64,000 bases of DNA from Prosthecobacter vanneervenii (lineage in GTDB: Bacteria; Verrucomicrobiota; Verrucomicrobiia; Verrucomicrobiales; Verrucomicrobiaceae), in assembly GCF_014203095.1 (NCBI RefSeq), contig NZ_JACHIG010000009.1, positions 124,001 to 188,000 of the forward strand, in the 5' to 3' direction. Of the stretch, positions 52,160-60,786 are shown piece after piece (the stretch's first letter is position 1; each line of letters starts with the position of its first letter). The notes below the pieces were generated by a model that was not told the origin of the DNA, made no database searches, and saw only the letters and a program-made list of their open reading frames with translations. The translations under genes and the position numbers were made by a program.

Positions 52160-52765
52160 TCAGACCTCAAACACCCCTGTCGCCCCGGAGAGAAACATCT
52201 CCCAGTCACGCACGCGGTAGTGGTTCTTGATGAGCTGGGTCACAGGAATCTCACGTGGGGCCACCGGCCGGCGCAGCAGCTTCAGCCCTGCCTCCTCGGG
52301 CAGCTTGTTGCCCTTGCGGCTGTTGATCTTGCGGTCGGCCAGCACGCAATTTTCCCAGTTGCTCGGACCTCCGCGCGAGACGGGGATGATGTGGTCGATG
52401 TTGCCCTCATGCGGTCGCAGCTTGCGGCCCGTGTACTGGCACGTCCCGCCGTCGCGCTCCCAGATGGCCTTCGCGCAAAACTTGGGCCTGCGTTTGGGCA
52501 CTTTGTCAAAGCGCGCCAGCACCAGCACCGAAGGCACACGCACCTGTCCGTGCACCGTGCCGATGCTGTTGTCTCCAGCGCGTACTTCCAGCTTCAGCCA
52601 ATCGTCCCATGTCACGGGACGCATGTCTCCTCCGGTATGGATGTCCAGCGCAGTGGCATTGCCCGCCGCCATCATGCTGAAAGACTCCATGGGCGTTTTG
52701 GAGTCGATGGCCTGCCAGTGCCTGTTCAGCACCAGTACAATCGATTTGTTCAACATTTCATTCAT
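52160..52765 (-). CDS. HNH endonuclease, copy A
   Basis: 201 residues from MNEMLNKSIVLVLNRHWQA. HNH core: TCQYTGRKL, then GNIDHIIPVSRGG and NCVLADRKIN. There is no second Cys pair, as in the phage-type HNH group. It is closely related to copy B 174 bp upstream; the pair looks like a tandem duplication. It lies at the downstream edge of the Ro60 island. Whether it cuts DNA or RNA is unknown. Confidence 0.85.
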   Translation of the reverse strand: MNEMLNKSIVLVLNRHWQAIDSKTPMESFSMMAAGNATALDIHTGGDMRPVTWDDWLKLEVRAGDNSIGTVHGQVRVPSVLVLARFDKVPKRRPKFCAKAIWERDGGTCQYTGRKLRPHEGNIDHIIPVSRGGPSNWENCVLADRKINSRKGNKLPEEAGLKLLRRPVAPREIPVTQLIKNHYRVRDWEMFLSGATGVFEV

Positions 52766-52939
52766 GCACAGCTCCTGAGTTGGGAATTTCGGCACGAAGA
52801 AGCGGCACGTGGATGACCGCTTCTTGATGTTGGACCGCTACGCTGGCGAGAGTTTGCGTTTTGCCAAGTGGCAAGATCGTTTCCTCCCAGGAATGCCGGA
52901 TGCCGCCGGGAAAGGAGTCCCCCTCCCCGGCGGCGTGGC

Positions 52940-53652: not shown

Positions 53653-54429
53653 TCAGTTCCTCAGAGCATACCGCCGGAAGAACAGATCCAGTTCATCCAT
53701 GTCGCCCATGGAGTCCTCGGGATCATTCAGCGCCTTCAGCCTCTTCAGTTCGGTGGCGATGAAGCGCGAGAGCGTTTCATCCGGGGCCGACTGGCTCAGC
53801 TCGCATCCGGCACGCTTGCGGGCCACAAGGGCCTCCAGCGCATCACGGACTTCACGCTCATCCAGCACGGCATCCACCAGCTCCTGAAACAGCATGGGCA
53901 CCTGGCCGAGCGAGCGCTCGATCCAGCGGCAGGCCATCAGCGGGCGGAACACATAGAGGTACTTTTTCAAGCTCACCTGATCCCGTCCCTCCAGATACTC
54001 GCGCCAGTTGCCGGACGCCATGTGCAGGTAATGCGAGAAGCAGCGGCGCGGGGAGTAAAACATCCCGGCCAGCTCATCGAACTCACGCGTGAAGACCGGA
54101 TCGTGATGATACACCACCGGCGACTTCAGCCACTCCAGCAGCGGCGGATTGCTCTTCCGCAGCAGGCGCAGCGCCTTACGCAGTTCCCATCCGCTCACAT
54201 CCAGCTCTTCGCTCAGCGGCTTCTCGATCACATCGCGCCGGTCCTCGATGGACAGATACCACTCGCGGCGATGCACGTACAGAAAGCGCACATCATAGTC
54301 GCTGTCCTGCGAGGCAAATCCCCACGCACGGCTGCCGCTTTCGCAGGCATACAGCACGCGCACGTTCTGCTCGGTTTCGATCTGGGCCAGCGTACTTCGG
54401 ACTTTCAGGGACACATCATTGGCACTCAT
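53653..54429 (-). CDS. RlaP-type nucleotidyltransferase (RNA repair-associated, PF10127)
   Basis: 258 residues from MSANDVSLKVRSTLAQIE; a longer frame was rejected. Polymerase-beta-type core: CESGSRAWGFASQDSDYDVR, with GSR and DxD, then FLYVHRREWYLSI. Family knowledge: RlaP proteins recur with RNA ligases and Ro60 in bacterial and phage RNA repair loci, where they probably add nucleotides to RNA ends. Here it follows the Ro60 gene with a terminator in between. No RtcB or RtcA gene is seen in the window. Confidence 0.88.
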   Translation of the reverse strand: MSANDVSLKVRSTLAQIETEQNVRVLYACESGSRAWGFASQDSDYDVRFLYVHRREWYLSIEDRRDVIEKPLSEELDVSGWELRKALRLLRKSNPPLLEWLKSPVVYHHDPVFTREFDELAGMFYSPRRCFSHYLHMASGNWREYLEGRDQVSLKKYLYVFRPLMACRWIERSLGQVPMLFQELVDAVLDEREVRDALEALVARKRAGCELSQSAPDETLSRFIATELKRLKALNDPEDSMGDMDELDLFFRRYALRN

Positions 54430-54464
54430 TGGGAGTTGGTTTCTTTCTATGGATTGAATGGGGA

Positions 54465-54503
54465 AAATAAAAAGTGCGCCGCTCCCGCAGTGGGAAGCGG
54501 CGC
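54465..54503 (-). terminator. Rho-independent terminator between Ro60 and rlaP genes
   Basis: Minus strand GCGCCGCTTCCC and GGGAGCGGCGC form a strong stem followed by ACTTTTTATTTT. It should end, or strongly attenuate, the Ro60 transcript before rlaP. Confidence 0.9.
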
Positions 54504-54535
54504 AAGTGGTGGCTCTGCTAAAGAGCTTCAAGAGC

Positions 54536-55963
54536 CTAAAGCTCCACGGCCTCGATCGTGTGGATCAGCGCGCCTGGGTCGGAGTCCAGCAGATGCAGAG
54601 TCTCCAGCGTTTTGTCGCTGAAGCCCGCCAGGCAGCAAACCTGGCGCTCTGGAAACTGCAGGGACCCGTAACCGGTCAGGTCAAAGCTGAACACTTTCGG
54701 ATCGCAGTCGTGGCGCTCTTTCCAGCGGCGGAAGGTCTCCACAGGCGTGTGGTGCCCCACCCAGCCCTGCATGTCAGAGAGGATGATGACACGGTCATAC
54801 GCCCGGTCTGCGCACTGGAAGATGGAATTGAAGTCGGTGCCTGCCGACTGTGCCTGCCCTTGCAGCCATTTGGCCAGCGAGAGCGTGCTGTCGCGCTTGT
54901 TAAGCGTGACGTATTTGGCGTTGTTGCTGAAAAGAATGACATCGGCGTCATTCGCCTTCAGCAGCGTGGCCGCAAAGAGCGAGCCGATCTGCAGCGGACG
55001 CCCCACCATGGAACCGGAGCCATCCAGCGCGACGAGTGTGCGTCCGGGAAAGGAAGGCACATTCGCGAGCGAGATGTCCACGGCATCGCTAAGGGCCGCC
55101 AGTGCATCAGCCGCACGTGGCAGATGGCTCGCCTGCACGGCATCGAGCGCCGTCTGAAAGCGGAACGGCAGCACCAGCGATTTGCGGATGAGGTTTTCAT
55201 CCCGCAGCATCGCCAGCGCCTGGTCCACAGCCTCCGGAGCAGATTCGAGCACGTTGCGCAGGTTTCGCAGCAGGGCAAAATAGCCCAGCTTCCGCGTGCG
55301 GATGAGTTCCGACCACGCCTCACGTTTCAGCTCGGCCAGGTCGTCTTCGCCTTGGGCAGCAGCGCCAGCTTGGGTGAGTTTTGTCTCCCAAGTTTCGGCC
55401 GCAGCCAGCGTGCCCTTCACCAGCTTGCCCAGCGCTTCGGTAGCAGGCGGATGCACGAGGTTCACCACATCCACCAGAGAGAGATCAGCGTTGTCCTTGC
55501 GGTACTTTGCCAGCTGATACTCATCGAAGCGCGCCAGAGCACGACCGAGGCCTTTCTTGAGCGAATTGGGAATCACCTTCCCGTAGGCACCGCGATAGCA
55601 AGCCAGGATCTCGATGGCATCATCAGGCCGATGAACCACACGGTCATAAAACCGCGCCGTCCACGACTCTCCCTTCACGCTTTTGGCCAGCTCCGCAGCC
55701 GTGAGATGGCTCACACTGCGCATGCCGGCCTGCTTGCGGGCATACAGGGCAGCCTTGGCGACGAAACGTTTGTCTGCATGAGCCGAAATCAGCTGTCGCA
55801 GCCGCACCGTCGTGACATCGCCACTGCGATAGTGCTCGTCTTTGAGCATGGAAGTGAGCATGATGGAGGCCAGCTCCAGCTTGGCGGATTCTGTGAAGGC
55901 CTCGCCACCCGCGAGGTTAAGCGTATCGGCACGTGGGCGTTTTTTGAGGAAATTGAATTTCAT
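54536..55963 (-). CDS. rsr: Ro60/TROVE protein
   Basis: 475 residues from MKFNFLKKRPRADTLNLAGG. Residues about 25-300 are the HEAT-like TROVE ring (SIMLTSMLKDEHYRSGD, KRFVAKAALYARKQAGMRSV, LGYFALLRNLRNVL). From about 305 there is a von Willebrand A domain with MIDAS residues DGSGSM, the Thr of AGTDF and ILSDMQG. Ro60 binds misfolded RNA ends in its ring and Y RNA on its outer face. Four Y RNA candidates lie directly upstream on the same strand, the last ending only 21 bp before this ATG. Confidence 0.96.
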   Translation of the reverse strand: MKFNFLKKRPRADTLNLAGGEAFTESAKLELASIMLTSMLKDEHYRSGDVTTVRLRQLISAHADKRFVAKAALYARKQAGMRSVSHLTAAELAKSVKGESWTARFYDRVVHRPDDAIEILACYRGAYGKVIPNSLKKGLGRALARFDEYQLAKYRKDNADLSLVDVVNLVHPPATEALGKLVKGTLAAAETWETKLTQAGAAAQGEDDLAELKREAWSELIRTRKLGYFALLRNLRNVLESAPEAVDQALAMLRDENLIRKSLVLPFRFQTALDAVQASHLPRAADALAALSDAVDISLANVPSFPGRTLVALDGSGSMVGRPLQIGSLFAATLLKANDADVILFSNNAKYVTLNKRDSTLSLAKWLQGQAQSAGTDFNSIFQCADRAYDRVIILSDMQGWVGHHTPVETFRRWKERHDCDPKVFSFDLTGYGSLQFPERQVCCLAGFSDKTLETLHLLDSDPGALIHTIEAVEL

Positions 55964-55984
55964 GATGATGAGTAGTGGGTGGAA

Positions 55985-56080
55985 TGCGGAGAAAATTTGC
56001 CTGGGAGACGGCCCGTGATAAGCCGCCGGCGCCCTTGCGAGCACACCGGCTCCCGAAGTAACCCGGGCATCGCTGCCGCA
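55985..56080 (-). ncRNA. Y RNA candidate 4 (nearest Ro60)
   Basis: 96 nt. Outer stem TGCGG/CCGCA; internal loop CAGCGA opposite AATTTTCT; inner stem TGCCCGGG/CCCAGGCA (one mismatch); then TTACTTCG as in candidate 3. The enclosed part folds as a GCCGG/CCGGC hairpin without an obvious T arm, so this copy has lost or never had the tRNA-like module. Stem sequences differ from the other copies while loops are kept, which argues for a real RNA. Confidence 0.65.
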
Positions 56081-56106
56081 AGATGGTCTGGATTTCGGAA
56101 AAGGGA

Positions 56107-56252
56107 TTTGGGGAGAAAGGCGACCGGAGAACGGATGCGTTGGCATCCAACCGCTCTACCATTGAGCTACAGATGCCTGTTGGCACCTGGCAGGACTCGA
56201 ACCTGCAACAGGTCGATTTGATTCGAAGTAACTCCAGTCTCACTGCCCCAAA
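56107..56252 (-). ncRNA. Y RNA candidate 3 with permuted tRNA-like module
   Basis: 146 nt. Outer stem TTTGGGG/CCCCAAA; internal loop CAGTGA opposite GCCTTTCT; inner stem GACTGGAG/CTCCGGTC. Inside sit a canonical T arm (GCAGG, TTCGAGT, CCTGC), then the two acceptor strands AGGTGCC and GGCATCT closed by a four-base loop, then a D arm (GCTC, AATGGTA, GAGC). The order T arm, acceptor, D arm is that of a circularly permuted tRNA. Followed by TTTT. Confidence 0.78.
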
Positions 56253-56259
56253 AAAAGGA

Positions 56260-56398
56260 TCGCGGAGAAAAGCAGACAGGCTCTAACTGAGGAGCCGGGA
56301 ATCGAACCCAGATCCGGCTTTCACCGAACCCCAACTCATGGGCACCGCACTTCAGTTTGGTGTTATGTCGCGAAGAAATCCTGTCTTCACTGCCGCGA
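56260..56398 (-). ncRNA. Y RNA candidate 2 with tRNA-like module
   Basis: 139 nt. Outer stem TCGCGG/CCGCGA; internal loop CAGTGA opposite GCTTTTCT; inner stem AGACAGG/CCTGTCT. Inside: AACTGA/TCAGTT as an acceptor-like stem, an anticodon-like hairpin with TGAAAG in the loop, and a canonical T arm (CTGGG, TTCGATT, CCCGG). Followed by seven T residues. Confidence 0.78.
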
Positions 56399-56411
56399 AA
56401 TGGAAAAAAGA

Positions 56412-56509
56412 ATCTGAGGAGAAAAGCGGCCGGGGCTTCACCCTGTCGCCAGGATGATGGGATTTGAACCCACGATTTCCGGAGTATCCCCGGCCTTGCT
56501 GCCTCAGAT
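56412..56509 (-). ncRNA. Y RNA candidate 1
   Basis: 98 nt. Outer stem ATCTGAGG/CCTCAGAT; internal loop CAGCAA opposite GCTTTTCT; inner stem GGCCGGGG/CCCCGGCC, all perfect. Inside are a T arm (GTGGG, TTCAAAT, CCCAT) and a second hairpin CATCCTG/CAGGGTG. Followed by TTCTTTTTT. A terminator for the 270-residue gene lies just ahead, so transcription must start between them or read through. Confidence 0.78.
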
Positions 56510-56515
56510 CAATCT

Positions 56516-56564
56516 AAAAAGAAAATGGCGCGTGCGGCACACCGATGGGCATGCCGCACACGCG
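56516..56564 (-). terminator. Terminator-like hairpin after the 270-residue gene
   Basis: Minus strand TGCGGCA/TGCCGCA with outer GCG/CGC and a two-base bulge, followed by CATTTTCTTTTT. It separates the protein gene from the Y RNA array. Confidence 0.75.
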
Positions 56565-56588: not shown

Positions 56589-57401
56589 TCAGTCGAGGAA
56601 GGCCAGATTGCTGCGCGAGGCAGCACGGTGCTCCTCGTTCATCAAGACCTGGTGCCAGTCGTGAAGCACGATGGTGGCATGGTCGGCATGGCGGATCGCG
56701 CCCCGGGCATACACGCCCGGATTGCGTCGCATCGTCTGCCAGATCCACTTCTTCGCATCAGGGTTCCGGCGGATCAGTTTGGAATACTGAGTCTCGGAGA
56801 TGCCCTGTGGGTGCTGTCGGTTGACATAGACCAGTTCGCCGCCAGTGCGGTAGAGCTGCTCCACGAGGTGCGGCTTGCTGCCGCCTCCACGAGAGATGGG
56901 CTCATGACGCAGGATGAGCTTGGGATCCACGGCCAATGGTTTTTCCACTGGCACGAAGAACCACTCGCCCTGACGGCGGAAGGCCGCGTTGTTCCTGGTG
57001 TTGGCCTGCCGGGCATTCAGGTTCTTGCGAGCCTGCGCCTGGCGCACGGGAGCCGGTTTCAGCGCCTCCTTGGCCTGCACCACGGTGGATGCAGTGCCTG
57101 GAACAGCGGCGACAAACCATTCGCGCTCATCGTGACCGCACAGAAAGCGGTCCTTGCGTTTGCTTTCCTCGTTTTTCACAAGGAGCAGCAAATGGCGGTT
57201 GTCCTCCTGCTTGTTCAGCAGGGAGAACTCCACCTCCGCAAGGCTCGCATCATCGCCCCGCAGGGCGAAGAACTGTCCGTGACGATCATGTCCGATGTCG
57301 AGCGAGTATCCCGAGGAAGCGCCCCGGCTGCGAGCCGGAGCCTCCAAACGAAGCCGTGCACCGATGGATTCAAACGCACGTTCGAGATGTTCGAGTTTCA
57401 T
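56589..57401 (-). CDS. Unrecognised 270-residue protein of the Ro60/Y RNA island
   Basis: No family recognised. Residues 1-95 look like a compact alpha/beta domain (LDIGHDRHGQFFALRG, then HLLLLVKNEESKRKDRFLCG, EREWFVAAVP). A basic linker rich in R, Q and N follows (about 112-145). The second half contains FFVPVEKPLAVDPKLILRHE, SRGGGSKPHLVEQLYRTGGE and an aromatic/histidine-rich end (RHADHATIVLHDWHQVL). No signal peptide. Its place between the tRNA array and the Y RNAs makes an RNA-binding or RNA-processing role a reasonable guess. Confidence 0.75.
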   Translation of the reverse strand: MKLEHLERAFESIGARLRLEAPARSRGASSGYSLDIGHDRHGQFFALRGDDASLAEVEFSLLNKQEDNRHLLLLVKNEESKRKDRFLCGHDEREWFVAAVPGTASTVVQAKEALKPAPVRQAQARKNLNARQANTRNNAAFRRQGEWFFVPVEKPLAVDPKLILRHEPISRGGGSKPHLVEQLYRTGGELVYVNRQHPQGISETQYSKLIRRNPDAKKWIWQTMRRNPGVYARGAIRHADHATIVLHDWHQVLMNEEHRAASRSNLAFLD

Positions 57402-57559: not shown

Positions 57560-57634
57560 TGGTCGGCCCACAGGGACATGCACCCTGCTATGCCGGTTAA
57601 AAGCCGGCTGCTTCGCTTTCTAAGCTTTGGACCG
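57560..57634 (-). tRNA. tRNA-Lys(TTT), atypical elbow
   Basis: Full cloverleaf with CCA encoded. Acceptor CGGTCCA/TGGGCCG, A73. Anticodon arm GCCGG, CTTTTAA, CCGGC. T arm CAGGG, TGCATGT, CCCTG: position 55 is G instead of T. D loop TAGAAAGCGA lacks GG. Confidence 0.85.
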
Positions 57635-57639
57635 TGAAG

Positions 57640-57713
57640 GCATGGAGACTGGAATGGAGCCCGGTTGTTTTTACTGTTTGAGGCTCTCTGCTTCGTGATT
57701 CCCTGCTCCATGC
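57640..57713 (-). ncRNA. tRNA-sized RNA with acceptor-like stem, identity unclear
   Basis: GCATGGAG/CTCCATGC closes a 74-nt region in the gap between tRNA-Lys and tRNA-Glu, at the array's usual spacing. CAGGGA follows the 5' strand. No clear anticodon or T arm; GAGCC/GGCTC may form an inner stem. It could be a decayed tRNA or a Y-like RNA. Confidence 0.4.
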
Positions 57714-57723
57714 AGAAAAAAAT

Positions 57724-57800
57724 TGGCACCCACGGCGGGACTCGCACCCGCTAGGCCAGATTTGAAGGACCTGTCGCTCGACGACTTTGCATTCGTGGGC
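57724..57800 (-). tRNA. tRNA-Glu(TTC), atypical elbow
   Basis: Acceptor GCCCACG/CGTGGGT, G73, CCA. Anticodon arm CAGGT, CCTTCAA, ATCTG: the universal T33 is C. T arm GCGGG, TGCGAGT, CCCGC with G55. G73 fits glutamate. D loop lacks GG. Confidence 0.75.
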
Positions 57801-57805
57801 TTTGA

Positions 57806-58046
57806 AAAATGGCGGAACGCCGAGAGCCGAGTGCTCTGGCCTGGGCACGAGACAGACTGCCAAAGGCAGCCCGGAAGGGTGAGCCCGCCGTGAGGCGGTG
57901 GGCGAATCAACAGCTCCTCATGCCGCGCTATGGCGGCACGATCTCGTTAGCACCGAACGCCTGCGCGACAGCGCATGATCAAAGCGAAGCCTATTCCGCA
58001 TAGCTGCGCAGCAGCAATTCCGGCACGCTGGTCCGGCTGACGTTCC
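57806..58046. repeat. Palindrome-rich intergenic repeat region
   Basis: A chain of GC-rich hairpins between tRNA-Glu and the 240-residue gene: CTGCC/GGCAG, GCCCGCC with GGCGGTGGGC, TGCCGC/GGCGGCA. One part (about 57912-57950, minus strand ATAGCGCG, CATGAGG, AGCTG) resembles the 66-67 nt element that splits two tRNAs of the array. It looks like an interspersed repeat and no gene is supported here. Confidence 0.45.
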
Positions 58047-58049
58047 ATG

Positions 58050-58772
58050 TTAGAAGAAGCGCTGGCGGGACTTGCTCCGAGTGAGTGCGGAAGCAGATAA
58101 GATGGCACGCTCATATGCCGTCTTCTCTGCCTCCACATCACCAGCGATGGCAGCACGCATGCGTTTTTGCGCCAACCGATCAAGCATATCGTGGCGTATT
58201 TTGGAGTCTTTCCAACGCCGGACACCAAGCAGCTTGTTCAGGTGTCCTGCACGCTTAGGATTGAGCAGAATACTTTCGATTTCACTGAGCCGGGAGTCGC
58301 CTTCAGGATCGCAGACCGGCAGTTCACGAACCATACGAGGGGCCACCTTAAGTTCGAAAAGCTGAGGCCATTTAAAACGCCAGGTGTGTTCCCAGGCACG
58401 CTGTTGGAATACATGCTCCACCATGAAATAGTGTTTCCACTCCGCTGGAAAATTGCCACGCCGTAGGCGCCTCGGCTTGATGCGCTGCAGCGGTTGATCT
58501 AGCTGCTGCAGCTGGCGACGCCGACAACGCTTGGTGGGCTCAAAGCTGCGTCTCCAGTGATATTTGATCACATTGATCTCCTTGAGTATGGCCTCGAGCA
58601 CGGGGGCATCAGGCCGTTCTTTGGCTGCGTTGGTGAGAAAGTAGCGGCGCATCCAGCCTCGCTGAACAGGCTGCTCAAGGATCACTTTTTCAGGAAAGCG
58701 ACGCCAAAGTTTTCGACGCTCGCGATCCAGCGCCAGCAGATGCTTCTCTTGAATGTCTTGTTGGGTTTTCAA
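58050..58772 (-). CDS. Unrecognised basic 240-residue protein inside the tRNA array
   Basis: Starts at TTG (58770-58772); no ATG is available nearby. The protein is strongly basic (many Arg/Lys, RRRQLQQLDQ, KPRRLRRGNF) and rich in Trp/Phe (AEWKHYFMVEHVFQQRAWEH, then TWRFKWPQLFEL). No family recognised, no signal or membrane segment. It sits between tRNA-Glu and tRNA-Arg, interrupting the array. The charge suggests nucleic acid binding. Confidence 0.65.
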   Translation of the reverse strand: MKTQQDIQEKHLLALDRERRKLWRRFPEKVILEQPVQRGWMRRYFLTNAAKERPDAPVLEAILKEINVIKYHWRRSFEPTKRCRRRQLQQLDQPLQRIKPRRLRRGNFPAEWKHYFMVEHVFQQRAWEHTWRFKWPQLFELKVAPRMVRELPVCDPEGDSRLSEIESILLNPKRAGHLNKLLGVRRWKDSKIRHDMLDRLAQKRMRAAIAGDVEAEKTAYERAILSASALTRSKSRQRFF

Positions 58773-58809
58773 TGGGTGGTGTTGGGTGGTTTATATCTTT
58801 TTGTTGAAA

Positions 58810-58885
58810 TGGCACTCCCGGAAGGACTTTCGCCTCCAGCCTCCGCGTTCGAAGCGCGGTGCTCTAGACATTGAGCTACGGGAGC
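58810..58885 (-). tRNA. tRNA-Arg(TCG), atypical elbow
   Basis: 76 nt with CCA. Acceptor GCTCCCG/CGGGAGT, G73. Anticodon arm CCGCG, CTTCGAA, CGCGG. T arm GGAGG, CGAAAGT, CCTTC: the T54-T55-C56 trio is lost and position 55 is G. D loop AATGTCTA. Confidence 0.85.
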
Positions 58886-58893
58886 ATTGAAAA

Positions 58894-58969
58894 TGGTGTC
58901 TCCGGCAGGATTCGCACCTGCGGCCTGCTGATTCGTAATCAGCCACTCTTTCTGCTGAGCTACGGAGAC
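58894..58969 (-). tRNA. tRNA-Arg(ACG), atypical elbow
   Basis: 76 nt with CCA. Perfect acceptor GTCTCCG/CGGAGAC, A73. Anticodon arm GCTGA, TTACGAA, TCAGC. T arm GCAGG, TGCGAAT, CCTGC (G55). D loop AGCAGAAA has AG where GG is expected. Confidence 0.9.
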
Positions 58970-58978
58970 ATGAAAAAG

Positions 58979-59050
58979 TGCCCATGGCAGGACTCGCACC
59001 CGCACTGGACCGCTTCTGAGGCGGTTGTCTCTGCGTTGGACTACATGGGC
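58979..59050 (-). tRNA. tRNA-Leu(CAG)-like, short variable loop, no CCA
   Basis: Acceptor GCCCATG/CATGGGC, A73, then CTT rather than CCA. Anticodon arm ACCGC, CTCAGAA, GCGGT. T arm GCGGG, TGCGAGT, CCTGC (G55). The variable loop is only five bases although leucine tRNAs normally have a long arm, so the anticodon may sit on a non-leucine body. Confidence 0.75.
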
Positions 59051-59058
59051 ATGAAAAC

Positions 59059-59201
59059 TGACAGCCTCGGGTGGAGTTGCGGCTCCTGCCGATGTGCGAA
59101 GTCTGCTCCGCACCTCATGATAACGCGCTATCACGCTTTGGCGCTGCACCACCAACTCTCCGCTTCAAAGGCGGATGCTCTGCTGATTGAGCTACAAGGC
59201 T
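59059..59201 (-). tRNA. tRNA-Gln(TTG) split by a 67-nt insertion in the T loop
   Basis: Acceptor AGCCTTG/CGAGGCT, G73 then TCA. D arm GCTC, AATCAGCA, GAGC. Anticodon arm TCCGC, CTTTGAA, GCGGA. T stem GGTGG/CCACC. The T loop would read TGCAACT (G55) but is opened after TGC by 67 nt (59079-59145). Without removal the T arm is broken. G73 fits glutamine. Confidence 0.75.
59079..59145 (-). repeat. 67-nt insertion element, copy in tRNA-Gln
   Basis: Same strand as the tRNA. Begins AGCGCC, contains GATAGCGCG and GGTGCGGAGCAG, ends GCCGC. Flanks are TGC before and AA after. About three-quarters identical to the copy in tRNA-Ala. No open reading frame, no target duplication. Confidence 0.75.
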
Positions 59202-59210
59202 TTTTTGAAA

Positions 59211-59287
59211 TGGTCGGATACCCCGGTGCCGCCCCGGGCTCCTCTTGCTTCCAAGGCAAGCGAGTGCTGCTGGCTCTCTCGTATCCG
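59211..59287 (-). tRNA. tRNA-Pro(TGG), atypical elbow
   Basis: 77 nt with CCA. Perfect acceptor CGGATAC/GTATCCG, A73. Anticodon arm CTTGC, CTTGGAA, GCAAG. T arm CCCGG, GGCGGCA, CCGGG (G54, G55). D arm GAG, AGCCAGCAGCA, CTC. Confidence 0.87.
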
Positions 59288-59296
59288 AATAAAAAA

Positions 59297-59371
59297 TGGA
59301 CGTATGCCCCAGGCTCGCACTGGGTAAGGCGGCTTTGCAGACCGCCGACTCGGCTCTTCGTCTTGCACACG
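59297..59371 (-). tRNA. tRNA-Cys(GCA), atypical elbow
   Basis: 75 nt with CCA. Acceptor CGTGTGC/GCATACG. T73 is the known cysteine identity base. Anticodon arm GCGGT, CTGCAAA, GCCGC. T arm CCCAG, TGCGAGC, CTGGG (G55). D arm GAC, GAAGAGCCGA, GTC. Confidence 0.88.
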
Positions 59372-59379
59372 AATTGAAA

Positions 59380-59453
59380 TGGTTCCCTCAGCCGGATCCG
59401 CCCCGGCACCGCTTCGTTCACAACGAAGAATGCTACAGTTACACCATGAAGGA
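59380..59453 (-). tRNA. tRNA-His(GTG), atypical elbow
   Basis: 74 nt with CCA. Acceptor TCCTTCA/TGAGGGA, A73, so the usual G-1:C73 pair of histidine tRNAs is not encoded. Anticodon arm CTTCG, TTGTGAA, CGAAG. T arm GCCGG, GGCGGAT, CCGGC (G55). D loop TAACTGTAG is one G short of the canonical form. Confidence 0.83.
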
Positions 59454-59462
59454 TGTATGAAA

Positions 59463-59538
59463 TGGAGCCTCCGGTGGGTTTCGCACCCACATGTACCTGT
59501 TTACGAAACAGGTGCCTTTCTGCGTCGGCCACGGAGGA
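59463..59538 (-). tRNA. tRNA-Thr(CGT), atypical elbow
   Basis: 76 nt with CCA. Acceptor TCCTCCG/CGGAGGC with a 1-72 mismatch, T73. Anticodon arm CCTGT, TTCGTAA, ACAGG. T arm GTGGG, TGCGAAA, CCCAC (G55). D arm GCC, GACGCAGAAA, GGC. Confidence 0.85.
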
Positions 59539-59546
59539 GTCTGAAA

Positions 59547-59621
59547 TGGTGCGGCATGTCGGTGCTGCCCCGACGCGCCCTGTTTGGAAGACAGGCATGC
59601 TTGCTGTTACATCAATGCCGC
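59547..59621 (-). tRNA. tRNA-Gly(TCC), atypical elbow
   Basis: 75 nt with CCA. Perfect acceptor GCGGCAT/ATGCCGC, A73. Anticodon arm CCTGT, CTTCCAA, ACAGG. T arm GTCGG, GGCAGCA, CCGAC (G55). D arm ATG, TAACAGCAAG, CAT. Confidence 0.87.
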
Positions 59622-59630
59622 ATTGAAAAA

Positions 59631-59705
59631 TGGTCGCTGGAGTTGGTATCGCGCCAACCTGTGCGGAACTTCAACCCGCCGCTCATCTGTCTAAGCCATC
59701 CAGCG
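59631..59705 (-). tRNA. tRNA-Phe(GAA), atypical elbow
   Basis: 75 nt with CCA. Perfect acceptor CGCTGGA/TCCAGCG, A73 as in phenylalanine tRNAs. Anticodon arm GCGGG, TTGAAGT, TCCGC. T arm GTTGG, CGCGATA, CCAAC (G55). D arm GCT, TAGACAGATG, AGC. Confidence 0.87.
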
Positions 59706-59719
59706 TTGTTTGATAAAAG

Positions 59720-59793
59720 TGGTCCCTCTGCGTGGTGATTCTCCACGGTCTGCCGGTTATCGACCGGCTGCTCTGCTGTTGAGCTACAGAGGG
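59720..59793 (-). tRNA. tRNA-Ile(GAT), atypical elbow
   Basis: 74 nt with CCA. Perfect acceptor CCCTCTG/CAGAGGG, A73. Anticodon arm GCCGG, TCGATAA, CCGGC with C33 in place of T33. T arm CGTGG, AGAATCA, CCACG (G55, A56). D arm GCTC, AACAGCA, GAGC. Confidence 0.82.
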
Positions 59794-59802
59794 ATGTTAA
59801 AA

Positions 59803-59860
59803 TGGCGGGGCACCAGAGAATGTCTGGCGCGATAGCGCCTCATTGAAACGCCCGGCGCTT
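59803..59860 (-). ncRNA. tRNA remnant with palindromic hairpin
   Basis: Ends in CCA at the array's normal spacing but is only about 57 nt. A CCAGA/TCTGG hairpin resembles a T arm. The rest is a GGCGC, TATC, GCGCC palindrome sharing its core with the insertion element. No anticodon arm. Probably a tRNA gene destroyed by the repeat. Confidence 0.4.
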
Positions 59861-59866
59861 TTGACA

Positions 59867-59957
59867 TGGCCTCGGAAGAGGCAATCGCACTCTGGACGCC
59901 TTTGCAGGGCGCAGCGGTTTTCGAGACCGTTTCCTCGTCTATGCCGGACGTACTCCG
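59867..59957 (-). tRNA. tRNA-Ser(CGA)-like, class II, weak acceptor
   Basis: 91 nt with CCA. Anticodon arm with CTCGAAA loop (ACGGT, ACCGC). Long variable arm GCGCC, CTGCAAA, GGCGT as expected for serine. D arm GTC, CGGCATA, GAC. The acceptor stem is poor (CGGAG/TTCCG only) and the T arm has an enlarged TGCGATTGC loop, so it may not be functional. Confidence 0.65.
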
Positions 59958-59963
59958 TTGAAA

Positions 59964-60036
59964 TGGCTCCCCGACGTGGATTCGCACCACGACGATCGGC
60001 TTAACAGGCCGACAGGCTACTTTACCTCACAGGGGA
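59964..60036 (-). tRNA. tRNA-Asn(GTT), atypical elbow
   Basis: 73 nt with CCA. Acceptor TCCCCTG/TCGGGGA with one mismatch; G73 fits asparagine. Anticodon arm TCGGC, CTGTTAA, GCCGA. T arm CGTGG, TGCGAAT, CCACG (G55). D arm AGG, TAAAGTAG, CCT. Confidence 0.85.
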
Positions 60037-60045
60037 TTCTAAAAA

Positions 60046-60185
60046 TGGTGGACGAGGACGGTAACGCTCCGTCTCCTGCTGGGTGCAGCGCCTCGCGCGA
60101 TAGCGCGAAATCATGTGGTGCGGAGCAGTAACTGCACAGCCGCAGGAGCGGCAAACCAGCTGTGCGCCTTGTACACTACAAGCCC
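60046..60185 (-). tRNA. tRNA-Ala(TGC) split by a 66-nt insertion in the anticodon loop
   Basis: Acceptor GGGCTTG/CTCGTCC has two mismatches but keeps G3-T70, the alanine identity pair, and A73, CCA. D arm GTG, TACAAGGCG, CAC. Anticodon stem GCTGG/CCAGC; the loop TTTGC-AC is opened by 66 nt (60087-60152). T arm GACGG, AGCGTTA, CCGTC (G55). Confidence 0.75.
60087..60152 (+). repeat. 66-nt insertion element, copy in tRNA-Ala
   Basis: Opposite strand to the tRNA. Begins AGCGCC, contains GATAGCGCG and GGTGCGGAGCAG, ends GCGGC. Flanked by TGC and AA, exactly as the copy in tRNA-Gln. Contains a TCGCGC, GATA, GCGCGA hairpin. Confidence 0.75.
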
Positions 60186-60192
60186 ATGAAAA

Positions 60193-60265
60193 TGGACGCA
60201 GGGGATGGAGTTGCACCAACCAAGACAGGCTTATGAAACCCGTCAGAGCACTGGCTCTCCCTGCA
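60193..60265 (-). tRNA. tRNA-Met(CAT), atypical elbow
   Basis: 73 nt with CCA. Acceptor TGCAGGG/CCCTGCG, T73. Anticodon arm CGGGT, TTCATAA, GCCTG. T arm GTTGG, TGCAACT, CCATC (G55, one stem mismatch). D arm is short: GAGC, CAGT, GCTC. Not initiator-like. Confidence 0.78.
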
Positions 60266-60275
60266 TTTTGAAAAA

Positions 60276-60364
60276 TGGAAACGCCCACGAGAAACACGGG
60301 GACCGCCACGGTGGGCCAATAACGGCATATGAAGTTGCTGCCGTGCGCCCCGTGCTTCGTGGGC
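60276..60364 (-). ncRNA. Long-stem structured RNA in tRNA array
   Basis: GCCCACGA/TCGTGGGC encloses CACGGGG/CCCCGTG, with AG opposite TTTC between them; inside, ACGGCA/TGCCGT and a CCAC/GTGG hairpin. The two-stem outline with a U-rich 3' bulge recalls the Y RNAs near Ro60. No credible anticodon or T arm. Ends in CCA. Confidence 0.5.
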
Positions 60365-60373
60365 ATGAATAAA

Positions 60374-60460
60374 TGGTGCGGCGTCACGGTAATGCTCCGT
60401 GCTGGCTCAATGAGCACTGGGGTTACAGTCCAGGTCGCCTGTTTAACGATCTACCGCCGC
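60374..60460 (-). tRNA. tRNA-Tyr(GTA), class II, atypical elbow
   Basis: 87 nt with CCA. Acceptor GCGGCGG/ACGCCGC (7-66 mismatch), A73. Anticodon loop CTGTAAC. Variable arm GCTC, ATT, GAGC as expected for bacterial tyrosine. T arm CACGG, AGCATTA, CCGTG (G55). Confidence 0.83.
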
Positions 60461-60479
60461 GTTCTTGAATTGGAAAAGA

Positions 60480-60554
60480 TGGCACGGCGGGTAGGTACTG
60501 CCCCCACATCCTCGGGTTTTGGAGACCCGTGCATTGCTTGTCTGCCACCGCCGT
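60480..60554 (-). tRNA. tRNA-Trp(CCA), atypical elbow
   Basis: 75 nt with CCA. Perfect acceptor ACGGCGG/CCGCCGT; G73 fits tryptophan. Anticodon arm CGGGT, CTCCAAA, ACCCG. T arm GTGGG, GGCAGTA, CCTAC (G55). D arm GCA, GACAAGCAA, TGC. Confidence 0.87.
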
Positions 60555-60580
60555 ATCTTATTGGAAAAACTTCACCGTTC

Positions 60581-60669
60581 TGCCATTCAAGGACACGGAG
60601 GCGGCCGATCACCACTCTCTCCCACAGAGTCACACACCACAGTACCACGCTCCGCGCCCTTGAATGGCA
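60581..60669 (-). ncRNA. 20-bp stem hairpin RNA
   Basis: The 20 bases at 60581-60600 pair without a break (allowing G-U) with 60650-60669 (ends TGCCATTCAAGG and CCTTGAATGGCA). The loop holds an ACTCT/AGAGT hairpin. It is not a tRNA. Strand is assumed from the neighbours. Its base overlaps the next hairpin, so the two folds exclude each other. Confidence 0.45.
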
Positions 60670-60697
60670 GATCAGCCTCTTAATGAGGTGATCTGCC
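60666..60697 (-). ncRNA. Small perfect hairpin
   Basis: GGCAGATC/GATCTGCC with an inner CCTC/GAGG stem and ATTAA loop. It looks like an acceptor stem joined directly to one hairpin. Function unknown. Confidence 0.35.
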
Positions 60698-60786
60698 AAA
60701 TCTGACCAGCCCGCAAAACGATTGCCGCTTTGAGAGTTGGTCTATAAAGAACGAACACCGCTGCCACGCACGGGATGGAATGTGTA

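Follow-up and report, generated by a model that had tools for sequence, protein, structure and literature searches.

A tRNA gene array with a coupled elbow change in RNA-repair loci of Verrucomicrobiota

The contact between G18 of the D loop and U55 of the T loop is regarded as nearly universal in tRNA. In Prosthecobacter vanneervenii a dense array of tRNA genes departs from it; the array occupies positions 57560-60554 on the minus strand of the 64,000-nucleotide stretch that was analysed (the window, contig C9:124001-188000 of a 6.66-Mb genome). The locus raises the question whether this departure is a true property of the encoded tRNAs and, if so, what a second tRNA set with its own elbow could be for. 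The feature is real, conserved and co-evolved, and among the arrays compared the altered elbow was found only in Verrucomicrobiota. As to its purpose, we give a probability of about one half to a stress-inducible reserve tRNA set of the long tRNA array (L-array) kind, located in an RNA-repair locus, which would be induced under stress, would serve translation and would evade enzymes that act on the ordinary elbow, the very site at which many enzymes recognise tRNA.

The altered elbow of the array

A sequence-only reading of this DNA had claimed G55 in all of the approximately 17 readable T arms and AG in place of GG in most D loops. Both claims hold: G55 is present in every readable T loop of the about 19 genes, and the D loops carry mostly A18-G19, with no AG in His, Glu and Arg(TCG). 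In the Ile and Arg(TCG) genes position 56 is altered as well, to A56. An off-by-one error in the numbering was ruled out with 63 diverse array tRNAs, in which the pair 53-61 is G-C in 63/63 and the pair 19-56 is G-C in 61/63; since both are kept, the position numbering is secure. A18 and G19 are each found in at least 90% of this set. Thus, of the canonical contacts G18:Psi55 and G19-C56 the latter is retained, and the former is replaced by A at position 18 and G at position 55.

An organism-wide use of G55 was likewise ruled out. Of the housekeeping tRNAs in this genome 42/42 carry TTC and GG, and housekeeping controls from loci outside the arrays of relatives gave TTC/GG in 19/19 (Opitutales-like) and 12/12 (Chthoniobacter flavus). 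The genome encodes TruB; that the array tRNAs cannot receive pseudouridine 55 from this enzyme, as had been proposed, follows from the loss of the target in the sequence.

Cloverleaf parsing together with reading by eye gave about 19 tRNA genes of 18 isotypes within 3 kb; the linkers between them are short, and in most genes the CCA end is encoded. A strict structural scan of the array found 11 cloverleafs, all with G55, and none in a shuffled window; the higher count comes from a looser scan and inspection by eye on top of these 11. Because the array tRNAs are divergent, ARAGORN and Rfam find only part of them above threshold (5 and 7, respectively).

From its upper end the array contains tRNA-Trp(CCA) (60480-60554; T loop GGCAGTA with G55, D loop with AAG) and a tRNA-Tyr(GTA)-like gene with a long variable arm (60374-60460; AGCATTA, G55). 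A tRNA-like CAT unit is located at 60193-60265 (D arm GCCAGTGC, T loop TGCAACT), which matches the Rfam family Tymo_tRNA-like with 34.7 bits, below the gathering score of 40. Then follow tRNA-Ala(TGC) (60045-60185; AGCGTTA, G55), with two acceptor mismatches and an insert of about 65 nucleotides (nt) in the anticodon loop, tRNA-Asn(GTT) (59964-60036; TGCGAAT) and a tRNA-Ser(CGA)-like gene (59806-59952), the T loop of which, TGCGATT, is split by an insert at 59819-59882. Next are tRNA-Ile(GAT) (59720-59793; AGAATCA, with G55 and A56), tRNA-Phe(GAA) (59631-59705; CGCGATA), tRNA-Gly(TCC) (59547-59621; GGCAGCA), tRNA-Thr(CGT) (59463-59538; TGCGAAA), tRNA-His(GTG) (59380-59453; GGCGGAT), tRNA-Cys(GCA) (59297-59371; TGCGAGC) and tRNA-Pro(TGG) (59211-59287; GGCGGCA). 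In tRNA-Gln(TTG) (59058-59201) the T loop, TG..CAACT, is again split, by an insert of about 66 nt, and the 3' end is TCA. tRNA-Leu(CAG) (58978-59050; TGCGAGT) has a short variable loop, as array tRNA-Leu do in general, whereas housekeeping tRNA-Leu are long-armed. The array continues with tRNA-Arg(ACG) (58894-58969; TGCGAAT) and tRNA-Arg(TCG) (58810-58885; T loop CGAAAGT with G55 and A56, D loop AATGTCTA) and ends with tRNA-Glu(TTC) (57724-57800; TGCGAGT), where most relatives in the genus keep TTC, and tRNA-Lys(TTT) (57560-57634; TGCATGT). A unit at 57813-58044, possibly of the Ser(GCT) kind, contains several inserts and is degenerate in this genome. Two further units, 60274-60364 and 57636-57722, have long closing stems and no tRNA fold; the former is a structured unit with a three-way fold and has a relative only in locus L089 (73%).

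Coupled evolution in the Verrucomicrobiota

The sequence-only reading had also proposed that both loops changed jointly, and had suggested a search for other arrays with G55. Such arrays were found in 20-kb stretches and 80 Ro60 loci of named genomes: from 52 Verrucomicrobiota loci we collected 577 distinct array tRNAs, 525 with G55 and 52 with T55. The D loop follows the T loop closely, T55 being accompanied by GG in 51/52 tRNAs. Among the G55 tRNAs a motif count gave AG in 473, GG in 18, several of which also contain AG, and other D loops in 34, so that AG is present in 473 of the 491 with either motif. The Fisher value for this coupling, 1e-50, takes no account of relatedness. Repeated switches between orthologues do not rest on it: tRNA-Met has GG/TTC in L093 and AG/TGC in L061 on stems that are 96% identical, and the same joint switch was found for Arg(TCT) between L089 and L061 (91%), Arg(TCG) between L076 and L098 (92%), Asn between L071 and L104 (89%) and Leu between L071 and L111 (85%). 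Genes with stems of 85-96% identity that exchange both loops together point to coupled evolution and not to decay, and the proposal of a joint, co-evolved change is thereby supported.

Positions 54 and 58 co-vary, too (T-A 302, G-G 81, A-T 60, C-A 47). In Arg(TCG) genes of the arrays an A or a G stands in place of C56, and position 19 of the D loop then often offers U or C, an observation that is no more than suggestive. Eight additional arrays were found by a covariance model alone and are all predominantly G55, with the bias that the model was trained on G55 tRNAs. Since this model, R1, also scores housekeeping tRNAs at 50-59 bits, single matches were not counted as arrays, and two such loci that were inspected contained T55 singles. 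The array is conserved in at least three families.

It might be argued that the array is old phage or plasmid cargo, a degenerating mobile tRNA array in which the elbow has drifted. Some genes of the window genome are indeed interrupted or misfolded, and horizontal spread of such arrays has been described in other bacteria (PMC9569102). However, the stems of the 63 array tRNAs are paired in 95.7% of cells, with 532 double-change cells and more covariation than in any shuffle or slide; besides, both loops change jointly and identity elements are conserved. Compensated cloverleaf stems and encoded CCA are what is found in functional tRNAs, and pairing and conserved positions are retained even though individual window genes are broken. 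We therefore consider such a decay very improbable, and a maintained reserve set remains our preferred reading.

The altered elbow has clear borders. The gene that usually departs from it is Glu, which has retained TTC/GG in the genus of the window and in several relatives; the Glu gene of the window itself has not. Beyond the Verrucomicrobiota, canonical T loops were found in Ro60-linked arrays of Acidobacteria (L156), Aureispira (L168), Saprospiraceae (L139 and L142) and of a viral contig, L189, in which there are 37 tRNAs. The linkage of Ro60 and tRNA arrays is therefore wider than the altered elbow. Ro60 genes adjoin canonical-elbow arrays in L156, L168, L139, L142, L153 and L189, a wide association that includes Acidobacteria, Bacteroidota and the viral contig.

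Inserts, protein neighbours and RNA-repair genes

Three genes of the window, Ala, Gln and Ser, contain the inserts of about 65 nt. Those of Ala (60086-60150, anticodon loop) and Gln (59079-59144, T loop) are reverse complements of each other, and the insert of the Ser(CGA)-like gene has homologues in L091 and L092. The Ala and Gln copies of this element are the only two in the genome, which rules out genome-wide REP elements. Relatives have inserts of 64-67 nt in both orientations (for instance L061 5426-5491, L064 1643-1707, L067 10260-10315 and L096 6663-6727); Arg, Leu and Ser genes carry them in the T loop and Ala and Gly genes in the anticodon loop, many at GTGCAA/TTGCAC sites. When 64-67 nt are taken out, Ala, Arg, Leu and Gly genes from relatives regain seven-base loops; for the three genes of the window the strict finder gave no such restoration. 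The inserts may be loop-targeted mobile elements or introns.

Located within the array is ORF240 (58050-58772, minus strand), which encodes a basic protein of 240 codons (family F0) and is a conserved companion of such arrays. Relatives were found in 24/240 genomes of the order, many with tRNA arrays in their flanks. The protein has no match in Pfam, PHROG or NCBIfam, and its AlphaFold2 model (pLDDT 82) has no fold match in the PDB with E < 0.001. No match was found in phages or plasmids; an origin from these was therefore rejected, and the same result speaks against the degenerating-cargo explanation. In one Verrucomicrobiota locus (L049 895-1329, the same locus as L068) a GOLLD RNA (152.5 bits) lies in the tRNA array beside ORF240.

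Downstream of the array and on the same strand is a set of genes that are known from RNA repair or recur at these loci. ORF270 (56589-57401), without a match in Pfam or NCBIfam, adjoins Ro60 also in L069 and L075. It is followed by three Y-RNA-like elements (56405-56520, 56245-56345 and 56100-56240), all with a canonical TTC in the T arm, as the sequence-only reading had noted; the third matches YrlA with 42.8 bits, below gathering. The Ro60/TROVE protein (54536-55963; TROVE E 3.2e-19) has its nearest named relatives in Prosthecobacter and other Verrucomicrobiaceae. The longest Ro60 open reading frame, 54536-56146, overlaps the last Y RNA, and the conserved start is M62 (about 55963). A TROVE protein beside Y RNAs, with the weak YrlA match directly upstream, is the arrangement of a Ro60/Y RNA operon. 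The RNA-repair nucleotidyltransferase RlaP (53653-54531; E 2.7e-90) and an HNH endonuclease (52160-52795) complete the group. At the other end, a leader region precedes the first tRNA (60556-60740, minus strand); at least eight relatives have it in the corresponding position, 70-87% conserved, and it is a candidate regulatory region, promoter or operator.

In the 48 arrays that contain five or more G55 tRNAs, HNH was the most constant protein neighbour (42/48), followed by Ro60 (36/48, a count owed partly to the selection of loci), ORF240 (27), RtcB (26), RlaP (19) and slipin (13); these identities have Pfam support. In the window genome RtcB is not beside the array and is encoded as a single copy on contig C12. 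Neither RtcA nor RtcR was recognised among the recurrent neighbours.

These neighbours bear on the two main rivals of the reserve-set reading, decoys and a dedicated protein partner. In the first, the tRNAs would not translate and would serve as bait, either to occupy tRNA-cleaving toxins or phage nucleases or to report them, and would feed RtcB/RlaP/Ro60 repair. The association with repair genes and the coverage of all isotypes, as a broad decoy would require, fit this idea; moreover, YrlA may competitively inhibit an anticodon nuclease, as the authors of PMC7790460 suggest, and tRNA arrays have been termed a putative antidefence system (PMC12803027). However, a bait should resemble its target, whereas here the elbow is changed, and G3:U70 and other synthetase identity elements, which bait for an anticodon nuclease would not require, are retained. 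We consider decoys unlikely. In the second, ORF240, Ro60 or a special factor would fit the rewritten elbow, so that a separate tRNA pool is kept or processed as a ribonucleoprotein until needed. A basic protein without recognised fold that accompanies 27/48 arrays would suit such a role, as would the GOLLD RNA within one array, but many G55 arrays have neither ORF240 nor Ro60 nearby and only HNH is near-constant, which makes a dedicated partner a doubtful and quite improbable explanation.

Charging, function and known systems

The reserve-set reading supposes tRNAs that can be charged, and many of their known identity elements are kept: Ala G3:U70 in 15/15, Cys U73 in 23/23, Asp G73 in 25/25, Asn G73 in 28/28, Pro C1:G72 in 37/38 and A73 in 38/38, Trp G73 in 15/16 and Leu A73 in 49/49. 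In some of the CAT genes the anticodon stem, GGG/CCC, is initiator-like. An elbow of the same composition is found in tymovirus tRNA-like structures, the Rfam consensus of which has a CAGU D loop and a UGCAACU T loop, that is, A18-G19 with U54-G55-C56. The crystal structure shows an elbow nearly identical to the canonical one, and this RNA recruits eEF1A and aminoacyl-tRNA synthetases (PMC4810234). A18/G55 is thus compatible with charging and factor binding. With identity elements kept, isotypes nearly complete and the elbow shared with tymoviruses, we doubt that the array tRNAs are barred from translation, and the earlier suggestion that they may bind poorly to EF-Tu or the ribosome is not supported.

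How such a reserve might work can be outlined. Cleavage of ordinary tRNAs or stress on translation would turn the locus on. Precedents for such control are the rsr-yrlBA-rtcBA operon, which tRNA fragments induce (PMC7790460), and Anabaena, where a single repressor, relieved under translation stress, controls the trn operon together with the rtcB, slipin and HNH genes (PMC10272220). Ordinary synthetases would charge the reserve tRNAs and the ribosome would use them. The rewritten elbow may allow folding without modification of T54 and pseudouridine 55, and may make these tRNAs a poor target for any nuclease or modifying enzyme that recognises the canonical T loop; translation could then continue while repair enzymes handle the broken housekeeping tRNAs.

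Several observations weigh against this interpretation. Glu often retains the canonical elbow, serine tRNAs are seldom recovered and the codon set is incomplete in most arrays, and several array genes of the window genome are interrupted or degenerate. No nuclease that is evaded by the altered elbow was found in this analysis. A CDI toxin may exist that cleaves the T loop between positions 54 and 55. The array tRNA-Leu have short variable loops, and leucylation of E. coli tRNA-Leu relies on the contacts G18:U55, G19-C56 and U54:A58 (PMC9976931). In a more specific version, which we hold only tentatively, the array is a parallel aminoacylatable set with its own A18-G55 elbow code, in which 54-58 is varied, that elbow-reading enzymes can tell apart and that takes over translation when housekeeping tRNAs are destroyed; loop-targeted elements of about 67 nt in some members might then be removed and the genes' transcripts resealed by the repair enzymes.

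That these tRNAs form a damage-proof reserve is an idea open to direct test in cultured species, for example Brevifollis gellanilyticus or Chthoniobacter flavus. Irrespective of function, hundreds of tRNAs of all common isotypes throughout a phylum have a different, co-evolving elbow, with the standard elbow in the housekeeping set of the same cells. This is a natural experiment on the purpose of the elbow, of pseudouridine 55 and of T54, and it connects tRNA arrays with Ro60/Y RNA repair systems.

Among known systems, the cell-wall tRNA-Gly of staphylococci is changed at D-loop positions 18-19 and has a U54-G55 T loop as well. The sequence-only reading had drawn this comparison, and the altered 18-19 bears it out; the remainder does not fit, as the staphylococcal tRNA is a single isotype with UU/CU at 18-19, a weakened T stem and a cell-wall function (PMC4052509), whereas the Verrucomicrobiota array is a near-full set with A18-G19 in which the pairs 49-65 and 51-63 are mostly G-C or C-G (A1). 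One could imagine that the altered elbow keeps charged array tRNAs off EF-Tu and feeds another pathway of amino-acid transfer, as the 18-19 change of the non-proteinogenic tRNA-Gly (PMC4052509) would suggest. No known pathway of this type needs almost all isotypes, however, none of the recurrent neighbours was recognised as a Fem-like or aminoacyl-transferase gene, and weakening of the T stem by A49-U65 and A51-U63 is not the pattern of the array; a role as non-ribosomal donors is therefore very improbable. Tymovirus tRNA-like structures share the A18-G19 D loop and the U54-G55-C56 T loop, but they are single RNAs with a pseudoknotted acceptor and a viral 3' end.

A reserve set has its closest counterparts in the long tRNA arrays, and we file the array as a variant of those in RNA-repair loci. 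As in the trn operon (L-array) of Anabaena PCC 7120, a dense extra cluster with nearly all isotypes exists beside a full housekeeping set: more than 40 housekeeping tRNAs are encoded elsewhere in the window genome, and most amino acids are covered; the largest set, in L087, has 29 tRNAs and 18 isotypes. RtcB, slipin and HNH are linked to both, in Anabaena via the shared repressor TrcR (PMC10272220). In contrast to Anabaena, Ro60, Y RNAs and RlaP are physically linked to the Verrucomicrobiota arrays; the coupled A18/G55 elbow, shared there by almost all members, may be a further difference. The mycobacterial tRNA arrays with GOLLD RNA and HNH are similar in having HNH beside the array, and GOLLD is present in one Verrucomicrobiota array; for these, no report of G55/A18 was found in the literature, mycobacterial sequences being outside the comparison. 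Finally, the Verrucomicrobiota loci resemble the rsr-yrlBA-rtcBA operons in the Ro60, Y RNA, RlaP and RtcB-type components around the array and differ from them by including a multi-tRNA array.

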